Assembly (NCBI RefSeq): GCF_008370495.1 | Contig: NZ_VTUX01000008.1 | Span: forward strand, 62,001-126,000 | Direction: 5' to 3' | DNA length: 64,000 nt | Source of the DNA: Pseudohalioglobus sediminis | GTDB lineage: Bacteria; Pseudomonadota; Gammaproteobacteria; Pseudomonadales; Halieaceae | In this document: positions 23,453-55,041 of the stretch, in pieces | Position numbering within the stretch: position 1 is the first letter of the stretch | Layout: each line of letters begins with the position of its first letter | Notes under the pieces: model-generated | Databases searched by the model: none | Told to the model about the DNA's origin: nothing | The model's input: the letters and a program-made list of their open reading frames with translations, nothing else | Program-made: the position numbers and the translations under genes

Positions 23453-23575
23453 CTCAGTAGCCAGGTTCCGTTGCAGGAACGTCGGAGGCCATGGATGGCC
23501 CGGCCGGCGCTCCGGGGAGTCGAGGTGCCATGGATGGCGCGCTACCGTTTCCGGCAACGGAACCTGGCTGCTGAG
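23453..23575 (+). repeat. GGA-loop inverted-arm element, copy A
   Basis: 123 bp with terminal inverted arms of 27 bp (25 matching; 23453-23479 and its partner ending at 23575). The interior has two hairpins: GGCCA-TGGA-TGGCC, then GCCA-TGGA-TGGC, joined by a segment closely matching copy E (CGGCCGGCG then TCCGGG). It lies between the convergent uup and aminotransferase genes. Confidence 0.75.
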
Positions 23576-23667
23576 TGCCGAGCGGCCAGAGTGAAATCAC
23601 CAAAAAGTTCGGACCCAATATCTCAGGCAGCGCTATCCACATGGCCCCTGACGCTGGCGTGGCTGGC

Positions 23668-24855
23668 TTACAACACCGCCGCCACAGACTCAGCCAGGTA
23701 ATCGATATTGCCCGCGTTCACCCCCGCCACGTTGATGCGTGATGAGTTGAGCATGTAAACGGCGTACTCCTCACGCAACCTGACCGCCTGCTCCGCAGAG
23801 AGGCCCAGGAAAGAGAACATGCCCTTCTCCTTCTCTATGAAAGCAAAGTCACGATCACAAGCGGACTCCAGCTTCTGGCGCAATGTACTGCGTAGGCCAT
23901 TGATGCGCTCACACATCTGCAACAGTTCAGTCCGCCAGGCCTCGCCCAGTTGCGCGTCAGCCAGGATACGGCCGGCGATCAATGCTCCGTGCGCCGGCGG
24001 CATGGAGTAAATGCGGCGCGCTGCGACCAGTGCCTGGCTCACCAGCGCCTGGGCGTTATCCCGATCACGGCAGATGAAAAGCGTGACCCCGGTGCGCTCG
24101 CGGTAAAGCCCCATATTCTTGGAACAGGAACCCGCCACGATCATTTCCGGCAGGCGCTCCGCCAGCAGGCGCAGGCCCGCGGCATCCGCGTCCAGTCCGT
24201 CGCCCATACCCTGGTAGGCGATGTCGATGAACGGCAGGAAGCCCTGCGCTGCGGCCATATCCGCGACCACGCCCCACTGCTCCAGGGTCAGGTCGGCACC
24301 ACACGGATTGTGGCAGCAGCCATGCAGCAGCACCACGTCGCCCGCTCCGGCCTGTTTCAGGTCCTCGACCATGGCATCAAAATTTACGCCGTGACTGGAC
24401 GGATCGTAATAGCGATAGCTGGAGAACTGCAGGCCGACACTGCCCAGCAAGGGCAGGTGTACCGGCCACGTGGGGTCGCTGACCCATACCGTGGCGCCCG
24501 GTGCCGCCGCGTGAATAATTTCCGCACCGATGCGCAGTGCGCCACAACCACCCGGCGCCGACACACTGCTGACCCGCTTGTCCTGCAAGGCGACATGGTC
24601 GGCACCAAGCAGCAGTTCCTGCATGCCGGTATTGAAATCCGCGACGCCCGCCGCCGGCAGATACGCCTTGGTGGTCTCGTCGGCAGCCAGCGCGGCCTGG
24701 GCGTCACGTACGGCGTCGAATACCGGGCAGATGCCCTGCTCGTTCATGTAAATTCCGACGGTAAGGTCGACCTTTTCGGCGCGCGTGTCAGCGCGCGCAG
24801 CGGCGGCCAGCCCGAGAATGGGATCAGCGGGAAGCGCTTGCAGTTGGTCCAGCAT
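23668..24855 (-). CDS. Aspartate/aromatic aminotransferase, class I
   Basis: A 395-residue PLP enzyme of the AspC/TyrB group, which transfers the amino group between aspartate or aromatic amino acids and 2-oxoglutarate. The PLP lysine lies in GSCSKNMGLYRERTG. LHGCCHNPCGADLT and PFIDIAYQGMGDG are the conserved cofactor-binding segments. The N-terminal LQALPADPILGLAAAARAD is typical. Sequence alone does not decide between aspartate and tyrosine preference. It shares its strand with pepD 17 bp upstream, so the two may be one unit. Confidence 0.92.
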   Translation of the reverse strand: MLDQLQALPADPILGLAAAARADTRAEKVDLTVGIYMNEQGICPVFDAVRDAQAALAADETTKAYLPAAGVADFNTGMQELLLGADHVALQDKRVSSVSAPGGCGALRIGAEIIHAAAPGATVWVSDPTWPVHLPLLGSVGLQFSSYRYYDPSSHGVNFDAMVEDLKQAGAGDVVLLHGCCHNPCGADLTLEQWGVVADMAAAQGFLPFIDIAYQGMGDGLDADAAGLRLLAERLPEMIVAGSCSKNMGLYRERTGVTLFICRDRDNAQALVSQALVAARRIYSMPPAHGALIAGRILADAQLGEAWRTELLQMCERINGLRSTLRQKLESACDRDFAFIEKEKGMFSFLGLSAEQAVRLREEYAVYMLNSSRINVAGVNAGNIDYLAESVAAVL

Positions 24856-24872
24856 GGTTACGGTCCTTCAGT

Positions 24873-26315
24873 TCAGATATCAGCGAGTAGTTCAGTGAGG
24901 AAGCGCCAGAAAGGCTCTACCGTGTCTATTCTCAGGCGTTCGGAGGGGGAATGTGCTCCGCGAATGGTAGGCCCGAAGGACAGGGTATCAACGCCAGGGA
25001 GCTTGCTCTTGAGTATTCCACACTCCAGTCCGGCGTGAATCGCCTTGACCGCCGGACGCGCGCCAAACAGGTGCTGGTGCACGGCGCTGCCCTGCTCCAG
25101 CAGCGGACTGCTGAAATCGGGTTCCCAGCCGGGATAGCCCACATCTTCAGTGACCTCGAGGTCGTAGGCGCGCGCCAGCGCCAGCACGGCGTGCTGCAGC
25201 GGCAGCGATTGTTGTTCATTAAAGAAGCGATAGCTGGATTCGACATACAGCTCCCCGCGCTGCAGGCGCAGGATAGCCAGGTTGATACTGAGGTCTACCA
25301 GGTCCGCGGGTTGTTCCAGGCTGTAGGCCTGTGCGCCGTGCGGGAAGGCGGCGATCAGGTCGAGCAGGCGCAGCGAATCCACTGCATCCAGGGCGCTGTC
25401 CAGCTGTACCGACTGCAGTGCCAGTTCCACGCCGTGATCCGCAGCGGGCAGGTAGCCGAGCCACCGCTGCCGGGCGTTCTCCAAGTGTTCGGCGAGCCGG
25501 CCGGCGACCTCTGCGGGAACGGCGAACTCGACGACGCCTTCACGGGGGATAACATTGTGCGCAACACCCACCTCGATGCTGCCCAGGCGCAGGCCCGGAA
25601 GTCCGCGCAGGCACTCACCCAGCAGCTTGATGGCATTGCCCAACTGTTCGTGTATCTGCACACCCGAGTGGCCACCGGCCAGGCCGCGCAGGTTGAGCCG
25701 AAAGCACTCGGCATCGCCACGCAGGGGATCCTCGGCAAAACTGCGCGCAAACTGCCAACCGGCGCCACCGGCACAACCGATGTAGAGCTCGTTCCAGTCC
25801 TCGGTGTCGAGATTCAGCATCAGGCTTCCGCTCAACATGGACGCATCAAGGTTCAGCGCACCACCGAGCCCGGTTTCTTCATCCACGGTGAACAACAGCT
25901 CCAGGGGGGGATGAGTCACATCAGGATCAGTCATCAGGGCGATGGACGCTGCACAGCCCAGGCCGTTGTCCGCGCCAAGGGTGGTGCGATCGGCACCTAA
26001 CCAGCCGTCGTCGACTTTCAGCTGCAATGGGTCGCGGGTGAAATCATGCTCCACGTCATCGGTCTTCACGGTCACCATGTCCAGATGGTTCTGGATGATC
26101 ACGGTGGGCCGATCCTCGCGACCCGGCGACGCCGGCACATAGATCACCAGGTTGCCCGCGTCGTCCAGGCGCACGGGATGGCCGGCCTGCTGCGCCAGAT
26201 CGACAAGGTATTGCCTGACCGCGGCCTCCTGTTTGGAAGGACGCGGTATACGGGTGAACTGGTAGAAGTGTTCCCACAGATGCGCGGGGCGCTGGGGGTA
26301 GTTGTCGGGCTTCAT
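24873..26315 (-). CDS. pepD: Aminoacyl-histidine dipeptidase PepD (M20C peptidase)
   Basis: A 480-residue cytosolic zinc dipeptidase acting on Xaa-His and other dipeptides. Metal-site segments of the M20 family are NHLDMV, GADNGLG, DEETGLGG and the HSGVQIHE dimerisation region. The ATG at 26315 is chosen; an in-frame TTG two codons earlier is possible but less likely. The end is followed after 17 bp by the aminotransferase, suggesting an amino-acid salvage unit. Confidence 0.93.
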   Translation of the reverse strand: MKPDNYPQRPAHLWEHFYQFTRIPRPSKQEAAVRQYLVDLAQQAGHPVRLDDAGNLVIYVPASPGREDRPTVIIQNHLDMVTVKTDDVEHDFTRDPLQLKVDDGWLGADRTTLGADNGLGCAASIALMTDPDVTHPPLELLFTVDEETGLGGALNLDASMLSGSLMLNLDTEDWNELYIGCAGGAGWQFARSFAEDPLRGDAECFRLNLRGLAGGHSGVQIHEQLGNAIKLLGECLRGLPGLRLGSIEVGVAHNVIPREGVVEFAVPAEVAGRLAEHLENARQRWLGYLPAADHGVELALQSVQLDSALDAVDSLRLLDLIAAFPHGAQAYSLEQPADLVDLSINLAILRLQRGELYVESSYRFFNEQQSLPLQHAVLALARAYDLEVTEDVGYPGWEPDFSSPLLEQGSAVHQHLFGARPAVKAIHAGLECGILKSKLPGVDTLSFGPTIRGAHSPSERLRIDTVEPFWRFLTELLADI

Positions 26316-26466
26316 GAACAATCCGGTGTCGCTATGGCTAAAGGCGCCGGATTATAGCGCTGCTGGGCATTTTTCACACAATTTCAGCGCAATTTTTACC
26401 TCCAATCACGGTCTCATATTCCTAGACTACAATCGCAGCAATTTTTTACTTAAGAGTATTTGTACC

Positions 26467-26652
26467 ATGAAAAGAATAGACGATGGCAAGGTGAGCCTGG
26501 TGGAGTTCCTCTCCAGCATCAAGTTTTCCCGCAGCCGCAGCAACAAGAAGGCCAGCGATGCCGGCAAACGCTTCGCGTCCTTTGAACAGCGCGCACCGGT
26601 CAGCCAGCCTTTTGCCACAGAAGACTCTTACCTGATTCGCAGCGCCAACTAA
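26467..26652 (+). CDS. Small basic hypothetical protein (61 aa)
   Basis: Sixty-one codons from ATG at 26467, beginning MKRIDDGKVSLVEFLSSIKF and then a basic, Ser-rich stretch SRSRSNKKASDAGKR. There is no signal peptide or membrane segment. An AAGAG lies about 10 bp upstream and a TACAAT at 26428-26433 could be a -10 box. The flanking DNA is AT-rich on the 5' side. I do not recognise the family. Codon use resembles the neighbours, which favours a real gene. Confidence 0.5.
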   Translation: MKRIDDGKVSLVEFLSSIKFSRSRSNKKASDAGKRFASFEQRAPVSQPFATEDSYLIRSAN

Positions 26653-26676
26653 GTCCGGCTCACCGCGCTGGGCGCT

Positions 26677-27513
26677 TCAGGTAGCGTCAGTGATCCTGGC
26701 GAACGGCGCAGTGCGCCTGCTCTGGCATAGCGACCAGCGCTGGTCTGGCGCCACCAGGTGATTGGCAATCACGGCAAACACGATGGGGTTGAACGGAAAG
26801 CCCACGTGACTTGCCATCACCGCCATATTGGTGACATAGCGCGGGTCGCCCTCACAACGGGCGATGCCCTTGCCGACAATCCCGTCCGACTCACTGTACA
26901 GCGTCAGCACCGGCACACGCAGCTCACCGCCGCTGTAGGTGTAATCCACCCATCGCCGCAGCGCCTCCTCTGACTCACCCGCAGAATTGTCATTCATACG
27001 TGCCATCACGCTGTAGAGTGCCGTGCCCCTGGGGTCGCCAAAGGGCGTACCCAGCGTAATGACCTGGCGAATCCACTGCGGATAGCGGTGCGCCAGGGCC
27101 ACGGAATACAGCCCACCGAGACTCCAGCCTATCAGGGTGACCTTGCGCCCCGAGGCTTGCCACTCGCGTTCCAGCTGCACGGCGATTCGCTCTTCCAGCT
27201 GGGCGCGATGACGCATGAATTGCTCCATGCTGTCCGCTTTGGCCTCACTCGCATTGCGCCCCAGCCCCCACGGCACGGCGTTGTAGCCGCGATCACGCAG
27301 AAATTTCCGCAGCATGGCGGTGGAGCCGTCCGCACCCATGAAGCCGGGGATGGTCATAATGGTATGGCCATCACCCCTGGGCAGGGTCTTGAACACCCCC
27401 TTGCACAGCACCGACGTGCCAGCCTCCATGGCCACCCGCCCAAGTTCGCTGATACTGTGGCGCAGACGGGGTGGTCGGATATCGGCAACGTAATGGCTGT
27501 TGGGTGCGCGCAT
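26677..27513 (-). CDS. Alpha/beta-hydrolase (esterase/lipase-like)
   Basis: A 278-residue alpha/beta-hydrolase fold protein. The nucleophile elbow is GWSLGG with Ser131, the oxyanion region TIPGFMGADGSTAML, a likely catalytic Asp lies in LYSESDGIVG, and a likely His in NHLVAPDQRW. There is no clear signal peptide. The substrate is unknown; a lipase, thioesterase or polyhydroxyalkanoate-related esterase is possible. It is a single gene, divergent from cmoA and convergent with the small gene upstream. Confidence 0.78.
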   Translation of the reverse strand: MRAPNSHYVADIRPPRLRHSISELGRVAMEAGTSVLCKGVFKTLPRGDGHTIMTIPGFMGADGSTAMLRKFLRDRGYNAVPWGLGRNASEAKADSMEQFMRHRAQLEERIAVQLEREWQASGRKVTLIGWSLGGLYSVALAHRYPQWIRQVITLGTPFGDPRGTALYSVMARMNDNSAGESEEALRRWVDYTYSGGELRVPVLTLYSESDGIVGKGIARCEGDPRYVTNMAVMASHVGFPFNPIVFAVIANHLVAPDQRWSLCQSRRTAPFARITDAT

Positions 27514-27606
27514 CGGCAGGTCCTGCTGTGGCTCGTATAACCGTCATTCTGCGGGCTTTTGACATGCGGCAACAGGTCTTTGTGCAGCCGCCGGTTTAAC
27601 AATTCA

Positions 27607-27615
27607 TGCTAGAAT
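27607..27615 (+). promoter_or_regulatory. Extended -10 promoter for cmoA
   Basis: TGCTAGAAT has the TG-N-TAGAAT form of an extended -10 element, 55 bp before the cmoA ATG. No convincing -35 is needed or seen. Confidence 0.4.
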
Positions 27616-27669
27616 CGCGGCCTTGTTGAGCAGCGGCCATTAGCAGCGCGGAGGCATGCGGTAGCTAAA

Positions 27670-28401
27670 ATGACGGATTCCCGAGATACGATTTACGCTG
27701 ACCCACTGCGAGAGGCCGGCCTGTTCACCTTTGATGACAATGTGGCGCGTGTATTTCCCGACATGATCAAGCGCTCGGTTCCGGGCTACACCACCATTGT
27801 CGCCATGACTGGCCTGCTCGCGCAGCGATATGCCGCACCGGGCAGCAACCTGTACGATCTCGGCTGCTCTCTCGGCGCATCAAGCCTGGCCATGCGCCAG
27901 AACCTGGACCACCGCGACTGTCGCATCATCGGTGTCGACAATTCGAAGGCCATGCTCGAGCGCTGCCGCACCATTATCGAAACGGACACCCACGACACGC
28001 CCGTGGACCTGGTGTGCGCGGATATCGAAAATATCGCCATCGACAACGCCTCCGTGGTGGTGCTGAACTTCACCCTGCAGTTCATCCCCCTGGCCCAACG
28101 CGACGCGGTGATCAGGCACATATACAAGGGCCTGCGCCCGGGCGGGGTGATGGTACTGTCAGAAAAGGTCACCTTTGAAGATCCGCACCTCGACGAGCTG
28201 AATATCGCACTGCATCACGAGTTCAAGCGCGCCAACGGTTACAGCGAGCTGGAAATCGCCCAGAAACGCGCCGCCATAGAGAATGTGCTGCTCCCGGAGA
28301 CACTGGCCACCCACCGCGAGCGTATGGCAAACGCCGGGTTTTCCGCCTGCGATGTCTGGTTCCAGTGCTTCAATTTCGCCTCCATGGTGGCCCTGAAGTG
28401 A
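27670..28401 (+). CDS. cmoA: Carboxy-S-adenosyl-L-methionine synthase CmoA
   Basis: Makes carboxy-SAM from SAM and prephenate, the donor for wobble uridine-34 modification in tRNA. The 243-residue length is normal. Motifs include DNVARVFPDMIKRSVPGY, the SAM-binding YDLGCSLGAS, and NFTLQFIPLAQRD. It is followed by cmoB with a 4-base GTGA overlap, so the pair is translationally coupled. Confidence 0.96.
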   Translation: MTDSRDTIYADPLREAGLFTFDDNVARVFPDMIKRSVPGYTTIVAMTGLLAQRYAAPGSNLYDLGCSLGASSLAMRQNLDHRDCRIIGVDNSKAMLERCRTIIETDTHDTPVDLVCADIENIAIDNASVVVLNFTLQFIPLAQRDAVIRHIYKGLRPGGVMVLSEKVTFEDPHLDELNIALHHEFKRANGYSELEIAQKRAAIENVLLPETLATHRERMANAGFSACDVWFQCFNFASMVALK

Positions 28402-29393
28402 TCGACTACTCGCCACTTATCGACCGCTGGCAGGAGGGCGACCTGGCGCCCTGGGCCCGGGCACTGCCCGGGCGGATCGAGCAGGGCTTGTCGCAAAAGC
28501 GCTATGGAGACCTCGAGCGCTGGCTGGCCGCGCTGGACAGCCTGCCGGACATCGACGTGGCCAGCGTTCAGCTCGACAGCCCGCGCGTGGGCGCAAGCAG
28601 CAACCAACCCCTGCCCGCAGACCTATCCACCTCTCTGCGCGAGGCGCTGATGGGCCTGCACCCCTGGCGCAAGGGACCTTTTGAACTGTTCGGCGTGCAC
28701 ATCGATACGGAATGGCGTTCGGACTGGAAGTGGGAACGACTGCTGCCCGGGCTCGATCCATTGCCGGGACGCCGGGTACTCGACGTCGGCTGCGGCAGCG
28801 GCTATCACTGCTGGCGTATGCTCGGCGCAGGCGCACGCGAGGTTATCGGCATCGATCCCACGCCCCTGTTCGTGGTGCAGTTCTGGGCACTGCAGAAGTA
28901 CCTGCAGCAAGCTGCAGCCTGGGTGCTGCCCCTGGGCATCGAGCAGGTGCCGCCAAAGCTGCGTGCTTTTGACAGCGTATTTTCCATGGGTGTGCTGTAT
29001 CACCGGCGCTCGCCCATGGATCACCTGCTGGAGCTGCGTGACTGCCTGCGGCCCGGAGGCCAGCTGGTGCTGGAGACGCTCGTTATCGAAGGGGGCCCGG
29101 GGGCCGTGCTGGTGCCCGAGGGGCGCTATGCGCGCATGGGTAACGTCTGGTTCCTGCCCAGCTGCGACACCTTGCTGGGGTGGCTGCGCAAAACCGGGTT
29201 CGCCGATGCCAGGGTGGTGGATGTCGGCAATACCAGCACGGCGGAACAACGCACGACCGAATGGATGACCTTCCACTCACTGGCCAACTTCCTCGATCCC
29301 GACGACAGCAGCAAGACCATTGAGGGTTACACGGCTCCGCGTCGCGCCGTTATCACGGCGCGGGCGCCGGGCAATTGGGAGCCCGCTGATTGA
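28398..29393 (+). CDS. cmoB: tRNA U34 carboxymethyltransferase CmoB
   Basis: Transfers the carboxymethyl group from carboxy-SAM to 5-hydroxyuridine-34 of tRNA. The 331-residue protein has WRKGPF-like HPWRKGPFELFGVHIDTEW, VLDVGCGSGYHCWRM for cofactor binding, and FSMGVLYHRRSPMDHL. The GTG at 28398 overlaps the cmoA stop as GTGA, which fixes the start despite a possible upstream TTG. Confidence 0.95.
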   Translation: MIDYSPLIDRWQEGDLAPWARALPGRIEQGLSQKRYGDLERWLAALDSLPDIDVASVQLDSPRVGASSNQPLPADLSTSLREALMGLHPWRKGPFELFGVHIDTEWRSDWKWERLLPGLDPLPGRRVLDVGCGSGYHCWRMLGAGAREVIGIDPTPLFVVQFWALQKYLQQAAAWVLPLGIEQVPPKLRAFDSVFSMGVLYHRRSPMDHLLELRDCLRPGGQLVLETLVIEGGPGAVLVPEGRYARMGNVWFLPSCDTLLGWLRKTGFADARVVDVGNTSTAEQRTTEWMTFHSLANFLDPDDSSKTIEGYTAPRRAVITARAPGNWEPAD

Positions 29394-29428
29394 TTTGACC
29401 TGGGCTGGTGCAGCCGGGGAGGGCCGTG

Positions 29429-31135: not shown

Positions 31136-31258
31136 ACCCCGAAGATAGCCCTGTTGGGCTACGCTTACAATGCACATCCTGTACTCTGTAAACGTGGGCG
31201 GCTAGAATCGTGACTTTTCCGGCATAAGCCAGTCCGAAACGGGTCCAGCGGACCTTCG

Positions 31259-32878: not shown

Positions 32879-33468
32879 ACTTCCTGGCCCACTTTCACCT
32901 GGCCTGGCCCGAAGATACGCTGGTGGTCGGTGCCCTGGAGGGCGATTTCCTGAAAGGGCCGTTGCGGGGCAGGCTGCCGCGCGATATCGAGCGCGGTGTT
33001 GCCCTGCATCGCGCCATCGATGCCTACACCGACAGTCATCCACTGCTGCTGGATCTGCGCCGCGCCTTCCCGGAGCGGTTGCGCCGGTACACCAGCATCC
33101 TCGTGGACCTCAGCTTCGACCACTACCTCAGCCGCCACTGGAGCTGCTTCAGCAGCGTACCGCTGAGCGATTTTATCCCCGCGGTGCACGACCACCTGGA
33201 GAACCACCGGCATCATCTCAGCGAACGCGCGGAGCACATGCGCCAGCGGCTGGTGCACTACGACCTGCTGGGGCGGTACACTGACTGGGAAACCGTGCCA
33301 CAGAGTGCAGCCAGGGTGGGCGAACGCTTTACCCGCGGCAACCCCTTTGCAGCCATCGGGACCACGCTGGAAGCGGCCAGGCCGATGATGGAAGAGGCCT
33401 TCCTGGCATTCTATCCACAGTTGCTTGAATTCAGCGCAGAAAAGAAACACGGCCTCAGGGCCGGGTGA
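32875..33468 (+). CDS. Acyl carrier protein phosphodiesterase family protein (AcpH/DUF479)
   Basis: A 197-residue protein matching AcpH, which removes the phosphopantetheine arm from acyl carrier protein. The N-terminus MNFLAHFHLAWP and the HD-like segments LHRAIDAYTDSHP and LSFDHYLSRHW are characteristic. It overlaps the gshA stop by four bases. Biological activity is documented for E. coli AcpH; here it is inferred. Confidence 0.85.
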   Translation: MNFLAHFHLAWPEDTLVVGALEGDFLKGPLRGRLPRDIERGVALHRAIDAYTDSHPLLLDLRRAFPERLRRYTSILVDLSFDHYLSRHWSCFSSVPLSDFIPAVHDHLENHRHHLSERAEHMRQRLVHYDLLGRYTDWETVPQSAARVGERFTRGNPFAAIGTTLEAARPMMEEAFLAFYPQLLEFSAEKKHGLRAG

Positions 33469-33639
33469 GAGCGCGCCTGCTGGTGGGCTGGCCCCCACGC
33501 ATGATTTGCCCAGCCTACGACTCCGCCCCGGGGCGCCGGCTGAACTTATTCACGGGTGCGCCATCGAACATAGCGCGCTGTGTTGCATCGCCATGGAAAA
33601 GCCCCTAACTTAGCCGCTCGATACAGAGGAATATCATTC

Positions 33640-34149: not shown

Positions 34150-34150
34150 T

Positions 34151-34615: not shown

Positions 34616-34633
34616 CGCCGGATCCGTACCGTT

Positions 34634-35637: not shown

Positions 35638-35639
35638 TG

Positions 35640-43300: not shown

Positions 43301-43317
43301 GGTTTCGCTCACCGGCA

Positions 43318-43583: not shown

Positions 43584-43619
43584 TCCTCCCCTTTCGAGCC
43601 TTCACTGCACCTGTAATCT

Positions 43620-44888
43620 ATGAATCTTACCGACCTGAAAACCAAATCCACCCAGGAACTTATCGACATTGCCAAGGAAATGGGCCTGGACAACATGGCC
43701 CGCTCCCGCAAGCAGGACATCATTTTCGCGATACTCAAGCGCCACGCGAAAAGCGGCGAAGACATCTACGGCGATGGCGTACTGGAAATTCTCCAGGATG
43801 GCTTCGGCTTCCTGCGCAGCGCTGACAGTTCCTACCTGGCGGGCCCGGACGATATCTACGTTTCGCCCAGCCAGATACGTCGCTTCAATTTGCGCACGGG
43901 GGACACGATCTCCGGCAAGATTCGCCCTCCCAAGGACAGCGAGCGCTATTTCGCCCTGCTCAAGGTCGGCGAGATCAACTTCAGCAAACCGGAGAGTGCC
44001 AAGCACAAGATCCTGTTTGAAAACCTCACACCGCTGTTCCCCGATCAGCGCCTGACGCTGGAGAAAGGCAACGGCAGTTCCGAGGACCTCACCGGCCGCA
44101 TCATCGACCTGGTAGCGCCTATCGGTAAGGGCCAGCGTGGACTGCTGGTGGCTCCGCCCAAGGCGGGCAAGACCATCATGATGCAGAACATGGCCCAGGC
44201 CATCATCAGCAACAACCCCGAGTGCTACATCATCGTACTGCTGATCGATGAACGCCCGGAGGAAGTCACCGAGATGCAGCGTTCAGTGGGCGCGCGCGGT
44301 GCCGAAGTTGTTGCTTCCACATTCGACGAACCCCCCTCACGTCACGTACAGGTCGCCGATATGGTGATCGAAAAGGCCAAGCGCCTGGTAGAACACAAGA
44401 AAGACGTGGTAATCCTGCTCGACTCCATCACCCGTCTCGCGCGGGCCTACAACACGGTGATCCCCTCCTCCGGCAAGGTACTGACCGGCGGCGTGGACGC
44501 GCATGCCCTGGAACGCCCCAAGCGTTTCTTTGGCGCTGCGCGGAATATCGAGGAAGGCGGCAGCCTTTCCATCATCGCTACCGCGCTGATTAACACCGGC
44601 TCGAAGATGGACGAGGTGATCTACGAGGAGTTCAAGGGCACCGGTAACATGGAACTGCACCTGGATCGCAAGGTGGCGGAGAAACGTGTCTACCCGGCTA
44701 TCAACATCCGCTCCTCCGGCACGCGCCGCGAGGAATTGCTCACTGGCGACGAGGAACTGCAGCGCATGTGGATCCTGCGCAAGCTGCTGCACGGCATGGA
44801 AGACCTGGCCGCAATCGAGTTCCTGATCGACAAGCTCAAGGACACCAAGACCAACGACGAGTTCTTCCTGTCGATGAAGCGGAAGTAG
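43620..44888 (+). CDS. rho: Transcription termination factor Rho
   Basis: Hexameric RNA-dependent ATPase that ends untranslated transcripts. The 422-residue length is normal. Features in order: Rho N-terminal domain [23 protein letters not shown]-binding fold with DGFGFLRS and [13 protein letters not shown], Walker A APPKAGKT, the Q-loop region, and the [19 protein letters not shown] segment. It is followed by the repeat-rich gap. Confidence 0.98.
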
Positions 44889-44911
44889 CGCTTCCATCTT
44901 TGAAAGCAAAG

Positions 44912-45246
44912 AGGGGTATTCCTTTTTAACTCCCCGCCCCAGGCAGGCTTAATCTACCTGCCGGGGACTGCGTAAAGCGCCATCCATGGCAGCTCGACTT
45001 CACACATACGTGCGCTCGCTTTGACCGGGATATTCTTTCTCCACTCCCCGCCCCAGGCAGGCGGTATTGCCCTGCCGGGGACTGCGTAAAGCGCCATCCA
45101 TGGCAGCACGTCTGCGCACATCCGTCCGTTCGGGTTGACCGGGATGCTCCTTTTCAACTCCCCACCCCAGGCAGGCTTAATCTACCTGCCGGGGACCGCG
45201 TAAAGCGCCATCCATGGCAGCTCGACTTCGCACATCCCTGTGCTCA
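44912..45246. repeat. 114-bp tandem repeat, three units
   Basis: The same block recurs with exact 114-bp spacing (AGGCAGG at 44941, 45055 and 45169). Each unit contains a hairpin with CCCCAGGCAGG paired to CCTGCCGGGG, then GCGTAAAGCGCCATCCATGG. The units differ by scattered substitutions, so the array is not very recent. On the minus strand each unit carries a GCCA-TGGA-TGGC hairpin. Copy 3 also forms half of element B3. Confidence 0.9.
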
Positions 45247-45280
45247 GACGTCCCCTGCAGGTAGATTAAGCCTGCCTGGG
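45166..45280 (-). repeat. GGA-loop inverted-arm element, copy B3
   Basis: Arms 45166-45195 and 45251-45280 are inverted copies with 29 of 30 matching. Read on the minus strand, the interior has GCACA-GGGA-TGTGC and then GCCA-TGGA-TGGC, followed by CGCTTTACGCGGTCCC, the same plan as copy C. The left arm belongs to the third tandem unit. Confidence 0.75.
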
Positions 45281-45350
45281 ACTGCAGTGTGGTCGTACTT
45301 CAGCCATGCTCGCCACTCCCGCTACTTGTAACTGTAGTGAGCAGTCGTGA

Positions 45351-45448
45351 GGCTGTACAGGTGCGTCGTGGGCGTGCGAGCACATGGATGTGCGAGCCCG
45401 AGTTGCCAAGGATGGCGCTTTTGCGGTCCACGACGCACCTGTACAGCC
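45351..45448 (+). repeat. GGA-loop inverted-arm element, copy C
   Basis: 98 bp bounded by perfect 21-bp inverted arms (45351-45371 and 45428-45448). The interior holds hairpin 1 GCACA-TGGA-TGTGC and hairpin 2 GCCA-AGGA-TGGC, then CGCTTTTGCGGTCC. The arms have no sequence in common with other copies. Confidence 0.85.
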
Positions 45449-45452
45449 GCGC

Positions 45453-45535
45453 GGCTGCGGCGAGCACAAATCCGAAACGCCGCAGCCCAAGCCTGCCAGG
45501 GATGGCGCTTTTTGGCGGTCCCCGGGAGCAACTTT
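45453..45535 (+). repeat. Partial GGA-loop element, copy D
   Basis: A 10-bp perfect hairpin (45453-45462 with 45478-45487) precedes a second-box sequence GCCA-GGGA-TGGC at 45496-45507 and CGCTTTTTGGCGGTCCC. No full outer arms were found, so it is degraded or rearranged. Confidence 0.5.
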
Positions 45536-45629
45536 CGAGTCGCCGGTGGCGGCCGTGGAACGAAAGATTGCGCACTACAATGCGAAAGTGTAGTGTCGAT
45601 TGGCACTGCATTCAGTAAAAGATCAAAAC

Positions 45630-47117
45630 GTGAAATACAAAGACCTCCGCGAGTTCATCGCCGAACTGGAAAGGCGCGGTGACCTGGTTCGCATCAACAC
45701 CGAAGTCGACCCCAACCTGGAAATGACCGAAATCGCCGACCGCACCCTGCGCGCCGGCGGACCCGCCCTGCTGTTTGAAAATCCCAAAGGCTTCACCACG
45801 CCCGTGCTCGCCAACCTGTTTGGCACCGAGCAACGCGTGGCACTGGGCATGGGCGCGGAAGAAGTCAGCGCGTTGCGTGAAATTGGCGAACTGCTGGCCT
45901 ACTTGCGGCAACCGGATCCTCCCAAGGGCATGCGCGACCTCGTGGACAAGGCGCCGGTGCTGAAAAAAGTGCTGAATATGGGCCCGAAAATGGTGCGAAA
46001 CCCGCCGTGCCAGTATCACGCCGTGCAGGGAGCAGACGTCGACCTGTACCAGTTGCCTGTGCAAACCTGCTGGCCGGGTGACGCCGGCCCGCTGGTGACC
46101 TGGCCCCTGGTGATCACGCGAGGACCGGAAAAAGAACGCCAGAACCTCGGCATCTATCGAATGCAACTGATTGGCCGCAACAAGCTGATCATGCGCTGGC
46201 TGTCACATCGCGGAGGCGCGCTGGACTACCGCGACTGGCAGATCAAACACCCCGGTGAGCGCTACCCGGTGGCGATCGCGCTGGGTGCTGACCCGGCGAC
46301 AACGCTGGGCGCGGTAACGCCAGTACCGGATGGGATTTCCGAGTACGCCTTCGCCGGGCTGCTGCGCGGGGGCAAGACCGAGATAGCCGAGTGTTTTACA
46401 CCCCTGTGTCGCGAACACGGCCTGCAGGTACCGGCATCGGCCGAGTATATTCTGGAAGGTTACCTGGAGCCGGGAGAGATGGCGGATGAAGGCCCCTTCG
46501 GCGACCATACCGGTTACTACAACGAGGTAGAGCGCTTCCCGGTGTTCACCGTGGAGGCCATCACCCATCGCGAAAACCCCATTTATCACAGCACCTACAC
46601 CGGGCGGCCACCAGATGAGCCGGCGGTGCTGGGTGTGGCCCTGAACGAGGTCTTCGTACCGTTGCTGCAGAAACAGTTTCCGGAAATCGTCGACTTTTAC
46701 CTGCCTCCGGAGGGCTGCTCCTACCGCATGGCAGTAGTGACGATGCGCAAGGAGTACCCGGGGCACGCCAAGCGCGTCATGTTGGGCGTCTGGTCATTCC
46801 TGCGCCAGTTCATGTACACCAAGTTTGTCATCGTCACCGACGAAGACGTCAACGCCCGTGACTGGAAGGATGTGATCTGGGCCATGACCACGCGCATGGA
46901 CCCACGGCGCGACTGCGTTTTCGTGGACAATACGCCCATCGATTATCTCGACTTCGCCTCCCCGGTTGCCGGCCTCGGCTCCAAGGTGGGCTTCGATGCA
47001 ACCAACAAGTGGCCCGGCGAAACCGATCGCGAATGGGGTGAACCGATCATGATGGATGAGACGGTCAAAGCACGGGTGGATGCCATGTGGGATGAACTGG
47101 GTATAGAACCGGGCTAG
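45630..47117 (+). CDS. ubiD: 4-hydroxy-3-polyprenylbenzoate decarboxylase UbiD
   Basis: Prenylated-FMN decarboxylase of ubiquinone synthesis. The 495-residue protein aligns end to end with E. coli Ubi[51 protein letters not shown], and the E-R-E type site in [15 protein letters not shown]. The GTG at 45630 is chosen because the family begins with the sequence following it. No Shine-Dalgarno is evident, and its upstream region is filled with the repeat elements. Confidence 0.96.
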
Positions 47118-47215
47118 TTCGCCAGTCACCGGCCCGTGAGGCCGTGGTTGTCACCGCAGACCGGTAACAACACAGGCAAAAAACGCAGGCTGCAAAACAG
47201 CAGGGGCCTCGCGCT

Positions 47216-48454: not shown

Positions 48455-48457
48455 GGC

Positions 48458-49651
48458 TTATTCGGCGCCTCCCTGTTGCAGGCGCTTCTTCACAGCCTGG
48501 TCCAAGGCATTCAGGGAACGCGACAGATCAGGCATGACTACCTGGATGGTCTGGCCTTCAAGACTGGTTATTTCCCTGGCCATGGCCCGCGCAGCAGCTT
48601 CATCCGTATCGAAGAACTGTGCCACCCAGTGCTGGGCGCGTTGCAGGCTTTCGGCATACAGGGTCTGGTTACCGGACAACAGGGCTACCTGCGCCTGCTC
48701 CAGTAACATGCGCAGATTCTGCCGCACCAGCCCTTCCCACTGCGGATCCATCAGTGCCTGCATCGGCACGTCACGACGACGGATCACGATGTAGTCGGAC
48801 AGTTTACTGGCCGCTTCTTCGTAGCCGCGCTGCAAGCGCACCTGCCAGTCATCAGCGGCTTCGAGTTCCGGCCGCTGTTCCTGCTCGGGTAGCTGGAAAA
48901 TACGCAATTGACCCGCCTGCTCCACAAGGGCGGACAGACGCAGATAGATACCTTCTACATCGACCTGGGGCACCGCGCGCAATGCGGCCTGCTCCGCTGC
49001 CACCGCGGCGCGCACCTCGTGCAGGCTGCTGTCGTCCAGTTGCCGGAGAATGGCGTCTGCGCTTTGCAGCAGTGCCAGTGCCGATTCCGTGTCGCGCGCC
49101 ATCAACACGCGCTGGTTGGCCAGGCGCAGCAGGTACTGGGCTTCGGCGCGCAACCAACTCTCGTGGTCATTGGCACTGAAGGCGGCGATCTGCTCGCCCT
49201 GCCGTTGTAACTGTTCTTCCAGGGTGCCCAGCTCCGCGGCCTGTTGCTGCACATCCGCCTGCGTTGACTGCACAGCACCGTTCAGCTCAGCCTGCAGCTT
49301 GCGCTCCAGTGCCTGCAATTCTGCCTGTTCACCCCCGGCAACAGACTCCAGCTCACTGATGCGCTGCAGCAGCGCCTGCTCCCTGAACAGCGCCTGCTGC
49401 ACCGACCAGGCCGCCGCACCGGCCAGCACCAGTATGAGTAACAGGGCCAACCACGCCACCAGGGAGGAACCGCCCTTCTTTGCCGGAGGCGGGGCCTGGG
49501 GCGGTGGCGCAGCACTGGGCCGGGCTTCCGGCGCGGGTGGCGCAGAGGCCGTGGTAACGCCGGTGCTGTCATCCTGGCCGGTGGCATCACTCGCGCCCTG
49601 TTCGGCGGTGGCCGGGGCTGACTCGGATGGCTTGTCTTTGTCTTCGCTCAC
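48458..49651 (-). CDS. hemX: HemX family membrane protein
   Basis: A 397-residue protein with a Pro/Ala/Ser-rich N-terminus, one membrane helix (SLVAWLALLLILVLAGAAA) and a long coiled-coil region. It matches HemX, annotated elsewhere as a uroporphyrinogen-III methyltransferase-like protein without proof. The GTG at 49651 is chosen because GGAGA lies 8 bp upstream and the start follows the hemD stop by 4 bp. It ends 3 bp before hemY. Confidence 0.88.
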   Translation of the reverse strand: MSEDKDKPSESAPATAEQGASDATGQDDSTGVTTASAPPAPEARPSAAPPPQAPPPAKKGGSSLVAWLALLLILVLAGAAAWSVQQALFREQALLQRISELESVAGGEQAELQALERKLQAELNGAVQSTQADVQQQAAELGTLEEQLQRQGEQIAAFSANDHESWLRAEAQYLLRLANQRVLMARDTESALALLQSADAILRQLDDSSLHEVRAAVAAEQAALRAVPQVDVEGIYLRLSALVEQAGQLRIFQLPEQEQRPELEAADDWQVRLQRGYEEAASKLSDYIVIRRRDVPMQALMDPQWEGLVRQNLRMLLEQAQVALLSGNQTLYAESLQRAQHWVAQFFDTDEAAARAMAREITSLEGQTIQVVMPDLSRSLNALDQAVKKRLQQGGAE

Positions 49652-49655
49652 TCTT

Positions 49656-50423
49656 TTATTCTCCAACTCGCCTCTGCAGCAATGCCTCCAGCATGGCACC
49701 GTCTGACGCATTAGCGGCTGTGGTGACATGACTGAAACCCGCTTCCTGCGCCTCTCCCGCTACGCGGTCCGAGGGCACGATAAGGTTGATATCCCTAAAC
49801 TTAGTGGTTTCTTTGTCGCTAAGCAACGTCAGCATATTGTTCAATCCCTCGCCGCTACTGATCAGCACCGCCCGCACGCCCTGGGATTGCAACAGTTCTG
49901 CCAGCCTGCCCGCGGGCAAATCCGGGCACCGGCGCTGGTAACAAGCGAGTTGATCAACCCTGGCACCGCGTTCTGCGAGCACGTCCCGCAGCGTCTGCCG
50001 GCCACCCACGCCCTTTACCAGCAGTACGCTATCACCCTCGGGCTGTTGCAGTTCGGGCAACGCCAGCAAACCCTCGCTGGTCATTTTTTGGCCAGGCGTC
50101 AGCGGGCACAGCCCGCGCTCGCGCAATAGCGCCGCCGTGGAATCGCCAATGGCATACCAGTTCAACCCGGTCGGCAACTGTGGCCAGTAGTTGTCTATCA
50201 CTTCAAGGCCGAAGCGAACCGCGTTGGCGCTGATAAAAATCACGTGCTGGTACTGGTCCAGATTCTGCACATGCTGCCGTGCAGCGGCGGGCAAGACCTC
50301 AACAGGCCGCAACAAGAGCAGTGGCTGGTGTACGCCGCGCCAGCCATTGCGCGCCAGCGCCGACAGCAACGGCCCCGCCTGTCCTTCCGGGCGGGTTACC
50401 AGGACCACGGACTCAGTCGCCAT
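49656..50423 (-). CDS. hemD: Uroporphyrinogen-III synthase HemD
   Basis: Cyclises hydroxymethylbilane to uroporphyrinogen III. The 255-residue protein shows the family's two Rossmann-like lobes: [45 protein letters not shown] and [15 protein letters not shown] at 50423 lies within the end of hemC, an 11-bp overlap that suggests coupling. Low general conservation is normal for HemD. Confidence 0.92.
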
Positions 50424-51345
50424 AGACTTCGGCGAGGATTGCTCCCGCGCCCTGCTGCAGCAGCGCTTCGGCAACGCTGATGCCAAGGGCTTCCGCATCG
50501 GCAGGCTCCGCCCGGCCCTCTGCGCGCAGCAGCTGCGATCCATCCGGCCGCCCTACCAGCCCGCGCAATAGCAGTTGCCCGTCCGCGAGATGCTGGGCAA
50601 AACAGGCGATAGGCACCTGGCAGCCACCATTGAGATGTTTGTTCAGGGCGCGCTCGGCAGTCACTCGCTGGGCAGTGGGCTCGTGATGCAAGGCCTGCAG
50701 CAGGGACAGGCCCTCGTCATCATCGGCGCGCAACTCGATGCCCACAGCGCCCTGGCCGCCGGCGGGCAATGAATCATCTACGGAAATGCTGTCGGCAATA
50801 CGGGCGGCAAAACCCAGGCGAATCAATCCGGCGGATGCCAGGATGATAGCGTCGTACTCACCGTCATCGAGTTTGCGCAGGCGTGTATTCACATTCCCGC
50901 GCAGGAAGCGCACTTCCAGGTCAGGGCGTCGGGCGCGCAGCTGGCACTCCCGGCGCAGGCTGGATGTACCGACGACCGCACCTGCGGGCAGCTGTTCGAG
51001 GGAGTCATACCGATTGCTGACGAAGGCGTCAGTCGGGTCTTCGCGCTCACAGATCACGCCCAGACCCAGGCCGTTAGGAAATTCCATGGGCACATCTTTC
51101 ATCGAGTGCACGGCAATGTCTGCTCTGCCGTCCAGCAGCGCGGTCTCCAGCTCCTTCACGAACAAGCCCTTGCCGCCCACTTTAGCCAGCGGCACATCGA
51201 GCAGCTGGTCGCCCCGTGACGTCATCCCGAGCAGCTGCACTTCCAGGTCGGGGTGAGCGCGCTTCAGCGCATCGCGCACGTATTCCGCCTGCCACAAGGC
51301 CAGCGGACTTTCCCTGGTGGCAATGGTGAGTGTACGGCTGGGCAT
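50413..51345 (-). CDS. hemC: Porphobilinogen deaminase HemC
   Basis: Builds hydroxymethylbilane from four porphobilinogens. The 310-residue protein has [17 protein letters not shown], the catalytic SMKDVP region, SSLRRECQL, and the dipyrromethane-binding Cys in [10 protein letters not shown]. It follows algR on the same strand after a 64-bp gap, the same order as in Pseudomonas. Confidence 0.97.
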
Positions 51346-51409
51346 GAATCGGGTTCCTTGATAGCTGCGCTCGGGGGAACGCCAATCATATCACTACGGC
51401 GGCTACCGT

Positions 51410-52144
51410 TCAGCGTTCGGCCAGGCGTTGCTTGACCGCACTGAGGTGGCGCCTGCTGATAGCGGGCTGCAGCTGCAGGCCATCGAGCACCACCCGCCAA
51501 CTGCCGTCTTCGCCCTTTTCCAGGCGCTCTACGTAGCGCAGTGCCACCAGGGCATTGCGGTGCACGCGAATAAACTGGCCGGAAAACTCCTGCTCCAGTT
51601 CTTTCAATGTCTCAGGCAGGAGCAGTTCCAGTTCGGCAGACATTGCGGTCACGTACTTCTGGCCCGCCACGAAACAGCGCACCGCATCCACCGGCATCGA
51701 TTCGAAACCACGGTGGGTGTGGCTGCTGATGGTGCGCCGGGCATCATCACCCGCATCTGCCTGTTGCAGACTGGCCAGTTGCAGACGGTTCACCCTTCCC
51801 GCTGCGTTCAGCGCGCGCTGCAGTTCACTCTCGCGCACGGGTTTCAAGAGGTAGGCAATGGCCTGGTGCTGCAGCGCCTGCAGAGCGTATTCATCGTAAG
51901 CGGTACAGAAAACAATCGCTGGCGGCGACGGCTGCTGATCAAGCTGCGCGGCCACTTCGATTCCGTCCATGCGCGGCATACGGATGTCCAGCAGTACCAG
52001 GTCAGGCTCTTCCTCGGCCACCATCTGCAGGGCCTGTGCGCCATCGGCTGCCTGCAGGCAACACGCCTCGGGCTCGACCCGCTGCAACAGGCGCAGCAGA
52101 CGCTCGCGCGCCAGCTGCTCATCGTCAACGATCAGGATCTTCAC
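51410..52144 (-). CDS. algR: LytTR-type response regulator AlgR
   Basis: A 244-residue response regulator. Receiver domain: ILIVDDEQLARERL, phospho-acceptor Asp in VLLDIRMPRMDG. A LytTR DNA-binding domain follows, with FIRVHRNALVALRYVE. The GTG start overlaps the algZ stop as GTGA, which fixes the start and couples the pair. In Pseudomonas AlgR controls alginate and pilus genes; here targets are unknown. Confidence 0.92.
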   Translation of the reverse strand: MKILIVDDEQLARERLLRLLQRVEPEACCLQAADGAQALQMVAEEEPDLVLLDIRMPRMDGIEVAAQLDQQPSPPAIVFCTAYDEYALQALQHQAIAYLLKPVRESELQRALNAAGRVNRLQLASLQQADAGDDARRTISSHTHRGFESMPVDAVRCFVAGQKYVTAMSAELELLLPETLKELEQEFSGQFIRVHRNALVALRYVERLEKGEDGSWRVVLDGLQLQPAISRRHLSAVKQRLAER

Positions 52145-53202
52145 TGCGACGGTTCCATCCTGTAGTTCAGCCGCACCCGGAAACATCCCCCGGAGGGATC
52201 AACCTGCAGACCAGCCTCGTCGCCGTACAGTCCCTGCAGTCGCTGCTCCACGTTTGCCAGTGCCATCTGGTTGCCCGTTCTCGCATCCGCGCCCTCGGGC
52301 ACGGGATTTTCCACCTGCGCGTACACCGTATCGCCTTCGCGTCCGAGATCGACCCTGATCGTGCCGCCCTCGGGCAAGCGTGCGATGCCGTGGTATACCG
52401 CATTTTCTACCAGCGGCTGCAGTACCAGGCTGGGCATGGCCAGCTCACGCAAGCCATCCTGCACCTGCCAGTGCACGGCGAGCCGGTCTCCCAGCCGCAG
52501 TTGCTCGATGCCCAGGTACAGCTCGCAGAGACGCAGCTCGTCCGCAACCGTGGTCACGCCGCGACTTTCCTTGAGACTGGCGCGAAACAACTCCGCCAGG
52601 TCCTCTACCGCCTGCTCCGCCGCATCCGGTCGCGACACGATGAGGCTGGCAATACTGTTGAGCGTATTGAACAGGAAGTGCGGGCGAATACGTGCACGCA
52701 GGGAATCGAGCCGCGCCTGCAACTCCATCTGTCGCTGCTGCAGCAACTGGTGCTGGAGGAAGAAGTAACGCAGGATAATCCCGCCAAGCACCAGAGAGAT
52801 CATGACGTTGCGCAGTACCCACCAGGGTGACTCGCCACCCCCTGAGAGCCAGGGGAAAAAATGCAGGACCAGCGCACTGGAAAGCGCAGTGACCGAGGCG
52901 ATCAGCCCCAGGCTGATGGCGGTAGCCGCGACCAGGTTGAGACGGCTCATCAGCGCCCGGCTCCGGCACATCAGCAGTGCGCTTAACAACACTACCCATT
53001 GCACGAACAGCGAGCAGGTGGCCAGCAGATCCCAGTCGAAAGCGGGCAGCGCGCTGCTGGCGAGGGTATAGACCATCACCATCAGCTGGGCCAGCAGGAT
53101 CATCATTAACACCGGTCGAGAAGCGCACAGGTCGGGGATGAAAAACTCCCCCAGTGCTGTCGTTTCCTGCTCTCGATCCCGGTCAGCCCGCGCTGGCTGC
53201 AT
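52141..53202 (-). CDS. algZ: Sensor histidine kinase AlgZ/FimS-like
   Basis: A 353-residue membrane kinase of the LytS/His_kinase group. About four membrane helices are followed by the phospho-acceptor segment [15 protein letters not shown] and an ATPase domain with [16 protein letters not shown] at 53202 is preferred over an upstream TTG since GAGGGG precedes it. It forms a coupled pair with algR and diverges from argH, as in Pseudomonas. Confidence 0.9.
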
Positions 53203-53226
53203 AGACGCGTCCCCTCGTGTCTTAGC

Positions 53227-53235
53227 TGGTATACT
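53227..53235 (+). promoter_or_regulatory. Extended -10 promoter for argH
   Basis: TGGTATACT has a good extended -10 form, in the 106-bp divergent gap between algZ and argH, and would give a leader of about 65 nt. The -35 region is poor. Confidence 0.45.
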
Positions 53236-53308
53236 TGCATCCCTTCGTGGCCCGGACAAGGTAAAAAGTCACGCCGGGCCAGGCAGTCGTTCAGCAACAG
53301 GATCTCAA

Positions 53309-54706
53309 ATGAGCAAGCAACAGGACACCAGTAAACTCTGGGGTGGACGCTTCAGCGAGCCCACCGACAGCTTCGTGCAACGCTTCACCGCCTCGGTGGA
53401 TTTCGACCAGCGCATGGCGGCAGAGGATATCGCCGGGTCGCTCGCCCACGCGAATATGTTGTGCGCCGTTGGCGTGCTCAGCGAAGATGAGTTGGGCCAG
53501 ATACAGGCAGGGCTGGCCACAGTGCAACGTGAAATCGACGACGGCACCTTCGCCTGGTCGGTGGAACTGGAAGACGTGCACATGAACATCGAGGCCCGGC
53601 TGACGGAATTGATCGGCGTGACCGGCAAGAAGCTGCACACCGGGCGCTCCCGCAACGACCAGGTGGCCACCGATATACGGCTCTACCTGCGCGCAGCCAT
53701 CGACCAGATTGCCACCGAGCTGACCCGCCTGCAGGAAGGCACTATCGCGCTGGCCGCGGAAAACACCGACACCATCATGCCGGGATTCACCCATCTGCAG
53801 ACGGCACAGCCGGTGTCCTTTGGCCACCACCTGCTGGCCTGGAATGAAATGCTGGAACGCGACCATGGCCGCCTGATGGATTGCCGGGCACGCATGAACC
53901 AGTCGCCCCTGGGCGCGGCCGCCCTCGCCGGCACCACCTACCCTATCGACCGCGAACAAACCGCTGCGGCACTGGGTTTCGACAAGCCCACCGAAAACTC
54001 CCTGGACTCGGTGTCCGACCGGGACTTCGCAATCGAATTCTGCGCCTTTGCCTCACTGCTGATGACGCATCTCTCGAGAATGTCCGAGGAACTGGTGATC
54101 TGGACATCGGCGCAGTTCAATTTTATCGAGCTGCCAGACCGCTTCTGTACTGGCTCTTCCATCATGCCGCAGAAAAAGAACCCGGACGTACCGGAACTGG
54201 TGCGCGGTAAGGTCGGCCGCGTCAACGGCCACCTGATCTCGCTGTTGACGCTGATGAAGAGCCAGCCGCTGGCCTACAACAAGGACAACCAGGAAGACAA
54301 GGAACCCCTGTTCGATACCGTCGATACGGTGCTGGACTGCCTGCGCGCCTTCGCTGACATGGTGCCGGCGATCAAACCGAGAGCGCAGCAGATGCGCGAG
54401 GCGGCACGCAGTGGCTTTTCCACCGCCACCGATCTCGCCGACTACCTGGTGGGACTGGGCCTGCCCTTCCGCGACGCCCACGAGGTAGTGGGAAAAGCAG
54501 TGGCACACGGTGTGGAGACGGGTCTGGACCTGGCGGAAATGGAACTGGCCACGCTGCAGGGTTTCTGCCCGGACATCGGTGAGGACGTGTTTGAGGTGCT
54601 GACTCTCGAGGGGTCAATCAGCGCGCGCGACCACCTCGGCGGCACCGCACCAAATCAGGTTGCCGCCGCGGCGCGGCGGGCCAGGGAGCGTCTGCAGTCG
54701 CGTTAA
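53309..54706 (+). CDS. argH: Argininosuccinate lyase ArgH
   Basis: Last step of arginine synthesis, releasing fumarate. The 465-residue protein begins [18 protein letters not shown] and contains [38 protein letters not shown] and the fumarase-family signature [15 protein letters not shown] at 53309 is the standard start. It is followed by the repeat-rich gap. Confidence 0.97.
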
Positions 54707-54741
54707 TTTAGTTAATTTGGTTGATTTGAGACCCGGCCATC

Positions 54742-54861
54742 AGGGCAGAAGATACCCTGTCGGGACCGGCAAAAGGCGTCATCCATGACAGCCTCGGGTT
54801 CCCGGAACGCCGGCCGTGCCTTCCATGGCCTCACACGCCCCGCCAGAGTATCTTCTGCCCT
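54742..54861 (-). repeat. GGA-loop inverted-arm element, copy E
   Basis: 120 bp with 23-bp arms (54742-54764 and 54839-54861; 21 matching, the outer 14 perfect). On the minus strand the interior reads GCCATGGAAGGC, then CGGCCGGCG..TCCGGG as in copy A, then GTCA-TGGA-TGAC and TTTTGCCGGTCCC. The stem GTCA/TGAC replaces the usual GCCA/TGGC, a paired change. Confidence 0.75.
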
Positions 54862-54930
54862 TATGTCCTAGTACGGAATCTCCACAGGCAGTTAAAGGGT
54901 TGCGAGGCTGCTGAACATGTCGATGCAGCG

Positions 54931-55041
54931 CGCAGGGCGCCACGGGCCATGACGGGGCGTGCGGCGCCATGGAGGGCGCCGCCCGAGGCTGTCATGGACG
55001 ACGCTGTTTGCCGGTCCCGGCATGGCCCGTGGCGTCCTGCG
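54931..55041 (+). repeat. GGA-loop inverted-arm element, copy F
   Basis: 111 bp with 21-bp arms (54931-54951 and 55021-55041; 20 matching). The interior has GGCGCC-ATGGAG-GGCGCC, then GTCA-TGGA-CGAC and CGCTGTTTGCCGGTCCC. It sits 69 bp after copy E in the opposite orientation. The two share a strongly similar interior but unrelated arms. Confidence 0.75.

Follow-up and report, generated by a model that had tools for sequence, protein, structure and literature searches.

Two-hairpin elements with a sequence-free outer stem in Pseudohalioglobus sediminis: a probable divergent branch of the TwoAYGGAY family and candidate CsrA-binding RNAs

A 64,000-nucleotide (nt) stretch of the Pseudohalioglobus sediminis genome (contig NZ_VTUX01000008.1, positions 62,001 to 126,000; hereafter the window) carries five elements, A, B3, C, E and F, in which two short hairpins with GGA in the loop are enclosed by a pair of inverted arms. 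The locus raises the question of what these elements are, and of how arms can stay complementary while their letters differ from copy to copy. A preliminary description of the window regarded the elements as a dispersed family without a name. The last point was wrong, as the copies appear by sequence and structure comparison to be a divergent branch of the known TwoAYGGAY family (RF01731). The favoured and best-supported reading of their function, to which we give about an even chance, is that they are CsrA/RsmA-binding RNAs.

The repeated two-hairpin elements are real. All five fold far beyond shuffled sequence, with z-scores from -6.5 to -10.8 that none of 200 shuffles equalled, and the outer stem is present in the predicted best fold of 5/5. 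All five have two GGA-loop hairpins. The motif CANGGANGRCGC occurs nine times in the window against an expectation of 0.79, a count that none of 100 shuffles reached. The arms, described before as 91-100% self-complementary, were found here to be 87-97% complementary, a near agreement in which the exact value hangs on the chosen arm ends (Table 1). The common plan proposed for the five copies applies to all of them, except that element A lacks CGCTTTnGCnGGTCCC and reads CGCGCTACCGTTTCC, and that the best predicted fold of element E pairs hairpin 1 otherwise than in that plan. Besides these five full copies, the window contains B1 and B2, both truncated, and the remnant of a 3' half.

Two models were used to collect further copies, a core model (R1) from seven window copies and a later full-length model (R2) built from the loci thus found, in which the arms contribute structural score. 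The window's own genome (G000, 4.43 Mb; other G numbers denote compared genomes and L numbers loci) has 24 matches to R1 at E ≤ 1 and 25 to R2 at E ≤ 0.1, 24 of the latter at E ≤ 4.1e-4 and with B1, B2 and the remnant included. From 138 model matches, 132 elements were analysed, leaving out the remnant, a weak match at window position 59789, two duplicate listings of one pair (L010), B1 and B2. Sixty-four rows, hand-chosen from 122 listed and none with a large insertion, were aligned. The order of parts is a border (often GAGG), a roughly 23-nt arm, GGGRCGT, hairpin 1, CGAG, hairpin 2, GCGGTCCC, the complementary arm and a second border (often CCGG). Hairpin 1 has a lower stem, often tandem G·A, an upper stem and an ANGGAN loop; hairpin 2 has a lower stem, a 3' bulge (e.g. 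GCTTTT), an upper stem and an ANGGAN loop, mostly ANGGAY. Non-standard pairs fill columns 40-57 in 42 and columns 41-56 in 41 of the 64 rows, by eye mostly as G·A and A·G. Two loci of G027 (L163, L164) form a subfamily whose junction reads AGCTC...GCAGCC instead of CGTC...CGAG.

Pairing is conserved far better than letters. In the alignment 92.0% of paired cells are filled by pairs versus 58.1% after shuffling (0/500 shuffles), and the covariation score is 0.815 versus 0.178 for shuffled rows and 0.12-0.15 for slid structures. Two-sided changes were found in 41/46 pairs overall, including all 31 pairs of the outer stem (helix 1), in which 94.8% of cells are paired and every pair varies on both sides. 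The paired changes reported earlier for the hairpin stems recur on this larger set (two-sided in 7/8 pairs of hairpin 1 and 2/4 upper-stem pairs of hairpin 2), and so does the constancy of the NGGA loops: A and GGA are invariant in both loops, and the closing C-G pair is kept in 63/64 and 64/64 rows. At least two CANGGANG sites lie in 119/132 cores and one in the other 13/132. The arm letters differ in nearly all 64 aligned copies, and mean arm identity between copies is 0.43 (best of five shifts), in line with the claim that arms are unrelated between copies. Identities of at least 0.8 occur only in the Pseudohaliea lineage (L067, L074, L139, L141, L143, L144), in part between copies that share a place and in part between copies that do not. 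The stem is 28-32 bp long in 102/132 elements, with a median of 30. Hence the outer stem is fixed in length and free in sequence. The preliminary description had allowed for a miniature inverted-repeat transposable element (MITE) derived from an insertion sequence with fixed terminal repeats; unlike in a MITE, the terminal repeats here are not common to the copies.

The assignment to TwoAYGGAY rests on the best copy of the genome, at C19:92216-92348, which scores 52.7 bits with RF01731, above the gathering cut-off of 43, and thereby supports the identity for that copy directly. All 12 RF01731 matches in this genome coincide with R2 matches. RF01731 was found above cut-off in 7/38 genomes, the window's own included, and in none of 14 control genomes. 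The likeness extends to anatomy: two GGA-loop hairpins, ATGGAT-type loops and gamma-proteobacterial hosts (RF01731 is in clan CL00106). One study describes for TwoAYGGAY a stem with tandem G·A and a poorly conserved external stem (PMC4333381), and both are seen in the elements. However, no Rfam model matches the window at gathering thresholds, the window copies B3 and C stay under the RF01731 cut-off, and A, E and F have no RF01731 match listed at E ≤ 1, all of which tells against the assignment. Their loops are also relaxed to ANGGAN: strict AYGGAY stands in both loops only in element A, whereas in B3, C, E and F one loop is strict and the other ANGGAN. Other Rfam models were set aside, since the microRNA, Ysr224 and isrG matches are far under their own cut-offs and such models would fit any long hairpin. 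In one search mir-1788 on B3 had a lower E-value than TwoAYGGAY, but at 31.6 of 57 bits; a microRNA model topped one E-value list of the window elements at 36.5 of 197 bits; microRNA models reached at most 55% of their own cut-off; and Ysr224 was the best match of two copies from outside the Halieaceae at 35 of 70 bits.

TwoAYGGAY was listed in 2010 as probably RNA and probably not cis-regulatory (PMC2864571), whereas Rfam types it as cis-regulatory, a discrepancy that does not favour the CsrA-binding reading. Matches to CsrA sites were later found in it and a CsrA-binding small RNA was proposed (PMC4333381), and a preprint terms the family relatively unexplored (PMC11661157). As far as this literature was covered, no demonstrated function was found, and copy number, pairing and gene position are not mentioned; against that background, the 25 matches in one genome, the shared gene positions, the divergent pairs and the nearly constant 30-bp outer stem of free sequence are new. 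Searches of the literature on Halieaceae palindromes, on CsrA with a REP sponge and on Marinobacter intergenic repeats found nothing relevant.

The mismatches reveal which strand is selected. Read on the NGGA strand, the non-Watson-Crick pairs in the arms of the 132 elements are 190 G·U, 13 A·C, 159 purine-purine and 15 pyrimidine-pyrimidine, and in the outer third of the stem (125 elements with stems of at least 25 bp) G·U outnumbers A·C by 105 to 3. Because the opposite strand would read G·U as A·C, selection acts on the NGGA strand in its single-stranded state, whether RNA or DNA. Together with the covariation, this strongly supports the earlier suggestion of selection on a single-stranded structure and gives that strand a name. 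G·T is also the more stable mismatch in DNA, where mismatch stability ranks similarly, so the bias is compatible with single-stranded DNA as well and to that extent weakens the case for RNA. RNA is favoured on account of the family identity and the loops, the mismatch count alone being no proof.

In the CsrA/RsmA-binding reading, each element would encode an RNA of about 125 nt, whose two short hairpins project from a junction closed by the helix of about 30 bp with its constant length and free sequence. Both hairpins usually present CANGGANG, the CsrA site, with GGA in the loop. The RNA would be made by transcription through intergenic gaps, the two GGA loops would jointly hold one CsrA/RsmA dimer, and the many copies could act by titrating CsrA or by marking transcripts for it. 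As the outer stem would serve as a rigid scaffold, its letters could drift as long as they stayed paired. CsrA genes occur in 36/38 genomes, including 33/33 of the high-quality ones. The known CsrB, RsmY and RsmZ small RNAs come from few loci with many GGA hairpins each; the elements resemble them in having GGA in hairpin loops with CANGGANG, and differ from them in being dispersed and in carrying two hairpins on a 30-bp stem.

Models of RsmZ and RsmY (RF00166, RF00195) gave no match above cut-off in any of the 38 genomes, which speaks for the CsrA-binding reading, though weakly, as control genomes passed neither cut-off. Several observations weigh against CsrA binding. Two genomes (G002, G007) have CsrA without any element match, so the element is not required for CsrA control. 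No promoter signal was found upstream, where 16 TATAAT-like hexamers were counted versus 28.8 expected. The idea that paired copies carry their own divergent promoters in the spacer was likewise dropped, because no -10 enrichment was seen. A loose GacA-box-like pattern (three mismatches allowed) gave 33 matches, scattered among the 20 matches listed.

Orientation relative to genes was counted where both neighbouring genes were backed by blastp to another locus, which was so for 78 elements, a set biased towards conserved loci. Convergent genes flank 34 of these and divergent genes 4, while the 40 between co-directional genes comprise 23 in antisense and 17 in sense. Thus 57 of the 78 point their 3' end at a convergent gene, often with 40-100 nt from core end to stop codon, as would be expected if the helix stabilised transcript 3' ends or, as a target of RNase III, prevented read-through into the gene opposite, with no role for CsrA. 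A rod of constant length with a nearly pure Watson-Crick middle would also suit such a structure. This explanation leaves the conserved CANGGANG loops and the junction unaccounted for, L108, L132 and L042 are among the copies found in sense between genes of one direction, and the 3'-end orientation may merely follow from divergent pairing; we therefore consider it quite improbable.

The elements often come in pairs. A neighbour within 400 bp was found for 87/132 elements, and neighbouring copies are divergent in 39/44 pairs; in 20 of these 39 the 5' ends are an estimated 44-71 bp apart. Intergenic, repeated and in inverted pairs, they resemble repetitive extragenic palindromic (REP) sequences, REPINs and bacterial interspersed mosaic elements (BIMEs), and could be mobile DNA of that sort, with inverted pairs acting as single-stranded hairpins of which one strand is recognised by a Y1 transposase (REP-associated tyrosine transposase, RAYT) or another enzyme. 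The scarcity of elements between divergent genes would fit such mobility, a strand-biased mismatch spectrum is typical of DNA hairpins too, and a Y1_Tnp domain was found in 22/38 genomes. However, three genomes (G010, G019, G020) have elements without a Y1_Tnp (PF01797) match, and one of them, G020, has recent-looking copies. No match to core queries was found in plasmids (two queries) or phages (one query), and many gene positions are shared. REP/RAYT elements are short palindromes of 20-40 bp tagged GTAG or CGTC (PMC3733652), whereas the present elements are about 125 nt long, with two inner hairpins, a conserved junction, a variable outer stem and no obligate Y1 transposase. A purely mobile origin thus seems unlikely to us, though it has some points in its favour.

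R1 matched 16 of 58 relatives, all in the window genome's own family, and a pattern scan included Pseudohaliea rubra, Pseudohalioglobus lutimaris and Mangrovimicrobium sediminis among its matches. R2 matched 42/145 genomes of the order, spread over 21 families, with at least 397 matches summed, and 18/299 genomes drawn from the phylum (the window's own, 10 others from its order and 7 from its class); per-genome copy numbers are lower bounds, as at most 24 (order) and 12 (phylum) candidates per genome were scored. At G078:C1:94410-95646, five full elements and one partial form a tandem array of uniform orientation with a spacing of about 228 bp.

A gene position is shared by 46/85 loci in 16 clusters, which are chains, one of them joining eight loci, among which G020 and one metagenome-assembled genome each appear twice. 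The gap between rho and ubiD holds copies in seven genomes, namely the window's own (the B/C locus) and, with one or two copies, G001, G004, G005, G006, G008 and G014. The model found no copy in the rho-ubiD gap of eight other chosen genomes, and G009 has two copies beyond the far side of ubiD. As so many gene positions are shared, the copies are largely inherited in place, with gain or loss, which argues against a mobile element and leaves "dispersed" as a fair description of the family rather than an account of its history. In three loci of this gap (L151, L157, L234) a second palindromic repeat was seen, which ends like GCGGGGATCCAG or CAGGGATCCAG.

Within the window's genome, arm identity between copies never exceeds 62% (210 pairs, mean of both arms), again contrary to what recent mobility predicts. 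Pseudohaliea (G020) differs in this respect. Its L144 and L141, on different contigs, have arms 85% alike and match at 88% over 156 bp, about one element plus short flanks, and its L139 tandem pair is 93% alike; in G014 the best pair at different places (L119/L117) reaches 78%. Because the L144/L141 match spans about one element, a unit of that length was copied in the Pseudohaliea lineage, and these comparisons indicate that spread probably still occurs or occurred recently there. This speaks for mobility and against a purely inherited set of RNAs, although CsrA binding may be compatible with units that also spread. Insertion into existing terminators or palindromes was rejected as an origin, as the arms are nearly constant in length between recurring GAGG-like and CCGG-like borders and mostly differ even at one gene boundary. 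Retroposition with 3' tandem tails was also set aside; tandem arrays (score of at least 60) start within about 60 nt of the core 3' end in 12/132 elements, versus 2 by the 5' edge. The units of these arrays measure 7-54 bp and are each different, some seeming to repeat the element's own 3' end (loci include L140:1579, L105:1707, L129:1217, L106:1590, L124:1567, L107:1590, L114:1852 and L139:1388).

Even at shared positions, the arms have mostly unrelated letters and are paired nonetheless. Since most orthologues are close to saturation at fourfold-degenerate sites too, this turnover needs no more than ordinary drift with compensation, and a rate faster than neutral is unsupported in general. 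Departures from this are L067/L143, whose arms (94% alike) are slower than fourfold sites (67%), and the opposite outlier L108/L132, with fourfold sites 81% alike and arms 50% and 39%. Ten close comparisons were made, nine of which were counted together with L108/L132 apart; two of the nine lie within one locus, and shifts were picked for best match. In the nine, double changes were paired in 44 cases and unpaired on one or both sides in 5; single changes stayed within paired states in 13 cases and led to or from an unpaired state in 12. The corresponding counts for L108/L132 are 7 and 4 for double changes and 5 and 5 for single ones.

The excess of paired double over single changes (44 versus 25) is what template switching in replication would leave if it kept the arms complementary mainly by itself, without selection, so that only the core were functional. 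The mechanism has been published as one that creates and maintains RNA stems (PMC8794818). It would also suit the stem middle, where positions 9-17 are 94-97% Watson-Crick (125 elements) with all four pair types common, and the pair L106:3634-3717 and L134:1544-1610, in which changes cluster in the 5' arm while the 3' arm and flank are near-identical. However, G·U stands far above A·C, which needs strand-specific selection, the stem length is sharp at 30 bp, and the arms of L067/L143 are slower than fourfold sites. In L106/L134 hairpin 1 differs as well, and recombination with another copy explains the pair equally well. As the main keeper of the stem, template switching therefore appears very unlikely, while a contribution of it to arm turnover is possible. 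L106/L134 looks as if half an element had been replaced, although the neighbouring ubiD genes are only 51% alike at fourfold sites.

A fuller version of the CsrA-binding reading would have paired CsrA-binding RNAs chromosome-wide, inherited at fixed gene boundaries, with stems kept partly by arm-to-arm template-switch recopying in replication; this combination is doubtful. If it were true, letters would turn over while shape and length are held, and the family would offer a natural test bed for the persistence of RNA helices. The high-copy genomes and cross-species positions supply many orthologous copies with a named strand, on which the proposed CsrA binding is directly testable, and a sequence-free stem with this many matches in the 42 genomes of the order is unusually good material for weighing compensatory evolution against template switching.

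Table 1. Elements and flanking genes in the window (positions count from its first letter; the complementarity of the arms varies with the chosen arm end)
Feature	Positions	Strand	Inverted arms (complementarity)	Scores and remarks
Element A, full TwoAYGGAY-like element	23446..23582	+	23453-23479/23549-23575 (93%)	R2 70.7 bits (G000:C22:85446-85582); arms; fold z -8.0; extra CGGCCGGCGCTCCGGG hairpin after hairpin 1
rho, transcription termination factor, left of B1-C	43620..44888	+		TIGR00767 698.6 bits (cut-off 509)
B1, truncated tandem copy	44934..45084	-		R1 71.2 bits, core 44960-45028; R2 only 37.2 bits; hairpin 2 and 3' side retained, matching outer stem gone
B2, second truncated tandem copy	45048..45198	-		R1 64.9 bits, core 45074-45142; R2 31.8 bits
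Element B3, full, divergent partner of C	45162..45284	-	45166-45196/45250-45280 (97%)	R2 113.4 bits; RF01731 35.2 bits; fold z -10.8
Element C, full, divergent partner of B3	45339..45460	+	45341-45371/45428-45458 (90%)	R2 108.1 bits; RF01731 31.9 bits; fold z -7.4
3'-half remnant (only hairpin 2 and tail)	45489..45525	+		R1 21.0 bits, model 34-68
ubiD, 4-hydroxy-3-polyprenylbenzoate decarboxylase, right of B1-C	45600..47117	+		NF008175 918.1 bits (cut-off 788)
Element E, full, divergent partner of F	54732..54871	-	54735-54764/54839-54868 (87%)	R2 78.2 bits; fold z -6.5; extra hairpin adjoining hairpin 1
Element F, full, divergent partner of E	54924..55048	+	54928-54956/55016-55044 (90%)	R2 97.9 bits; fold z -6.5

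The truncated copies B1 and B2 (window 44934-45198) are spaced 114 bp apart in tandem, and both have retained hairpin 2 and lost the matching 5' arm. The arm that remains is a short hairpin by itself (CCCAGGCAGG...CCTGCCGGGG). Beside element A, positions 23310-23350 resemble by eye a decayed inverted partner (CCGAAAACGCGACTACGCAAAAAGCGG).

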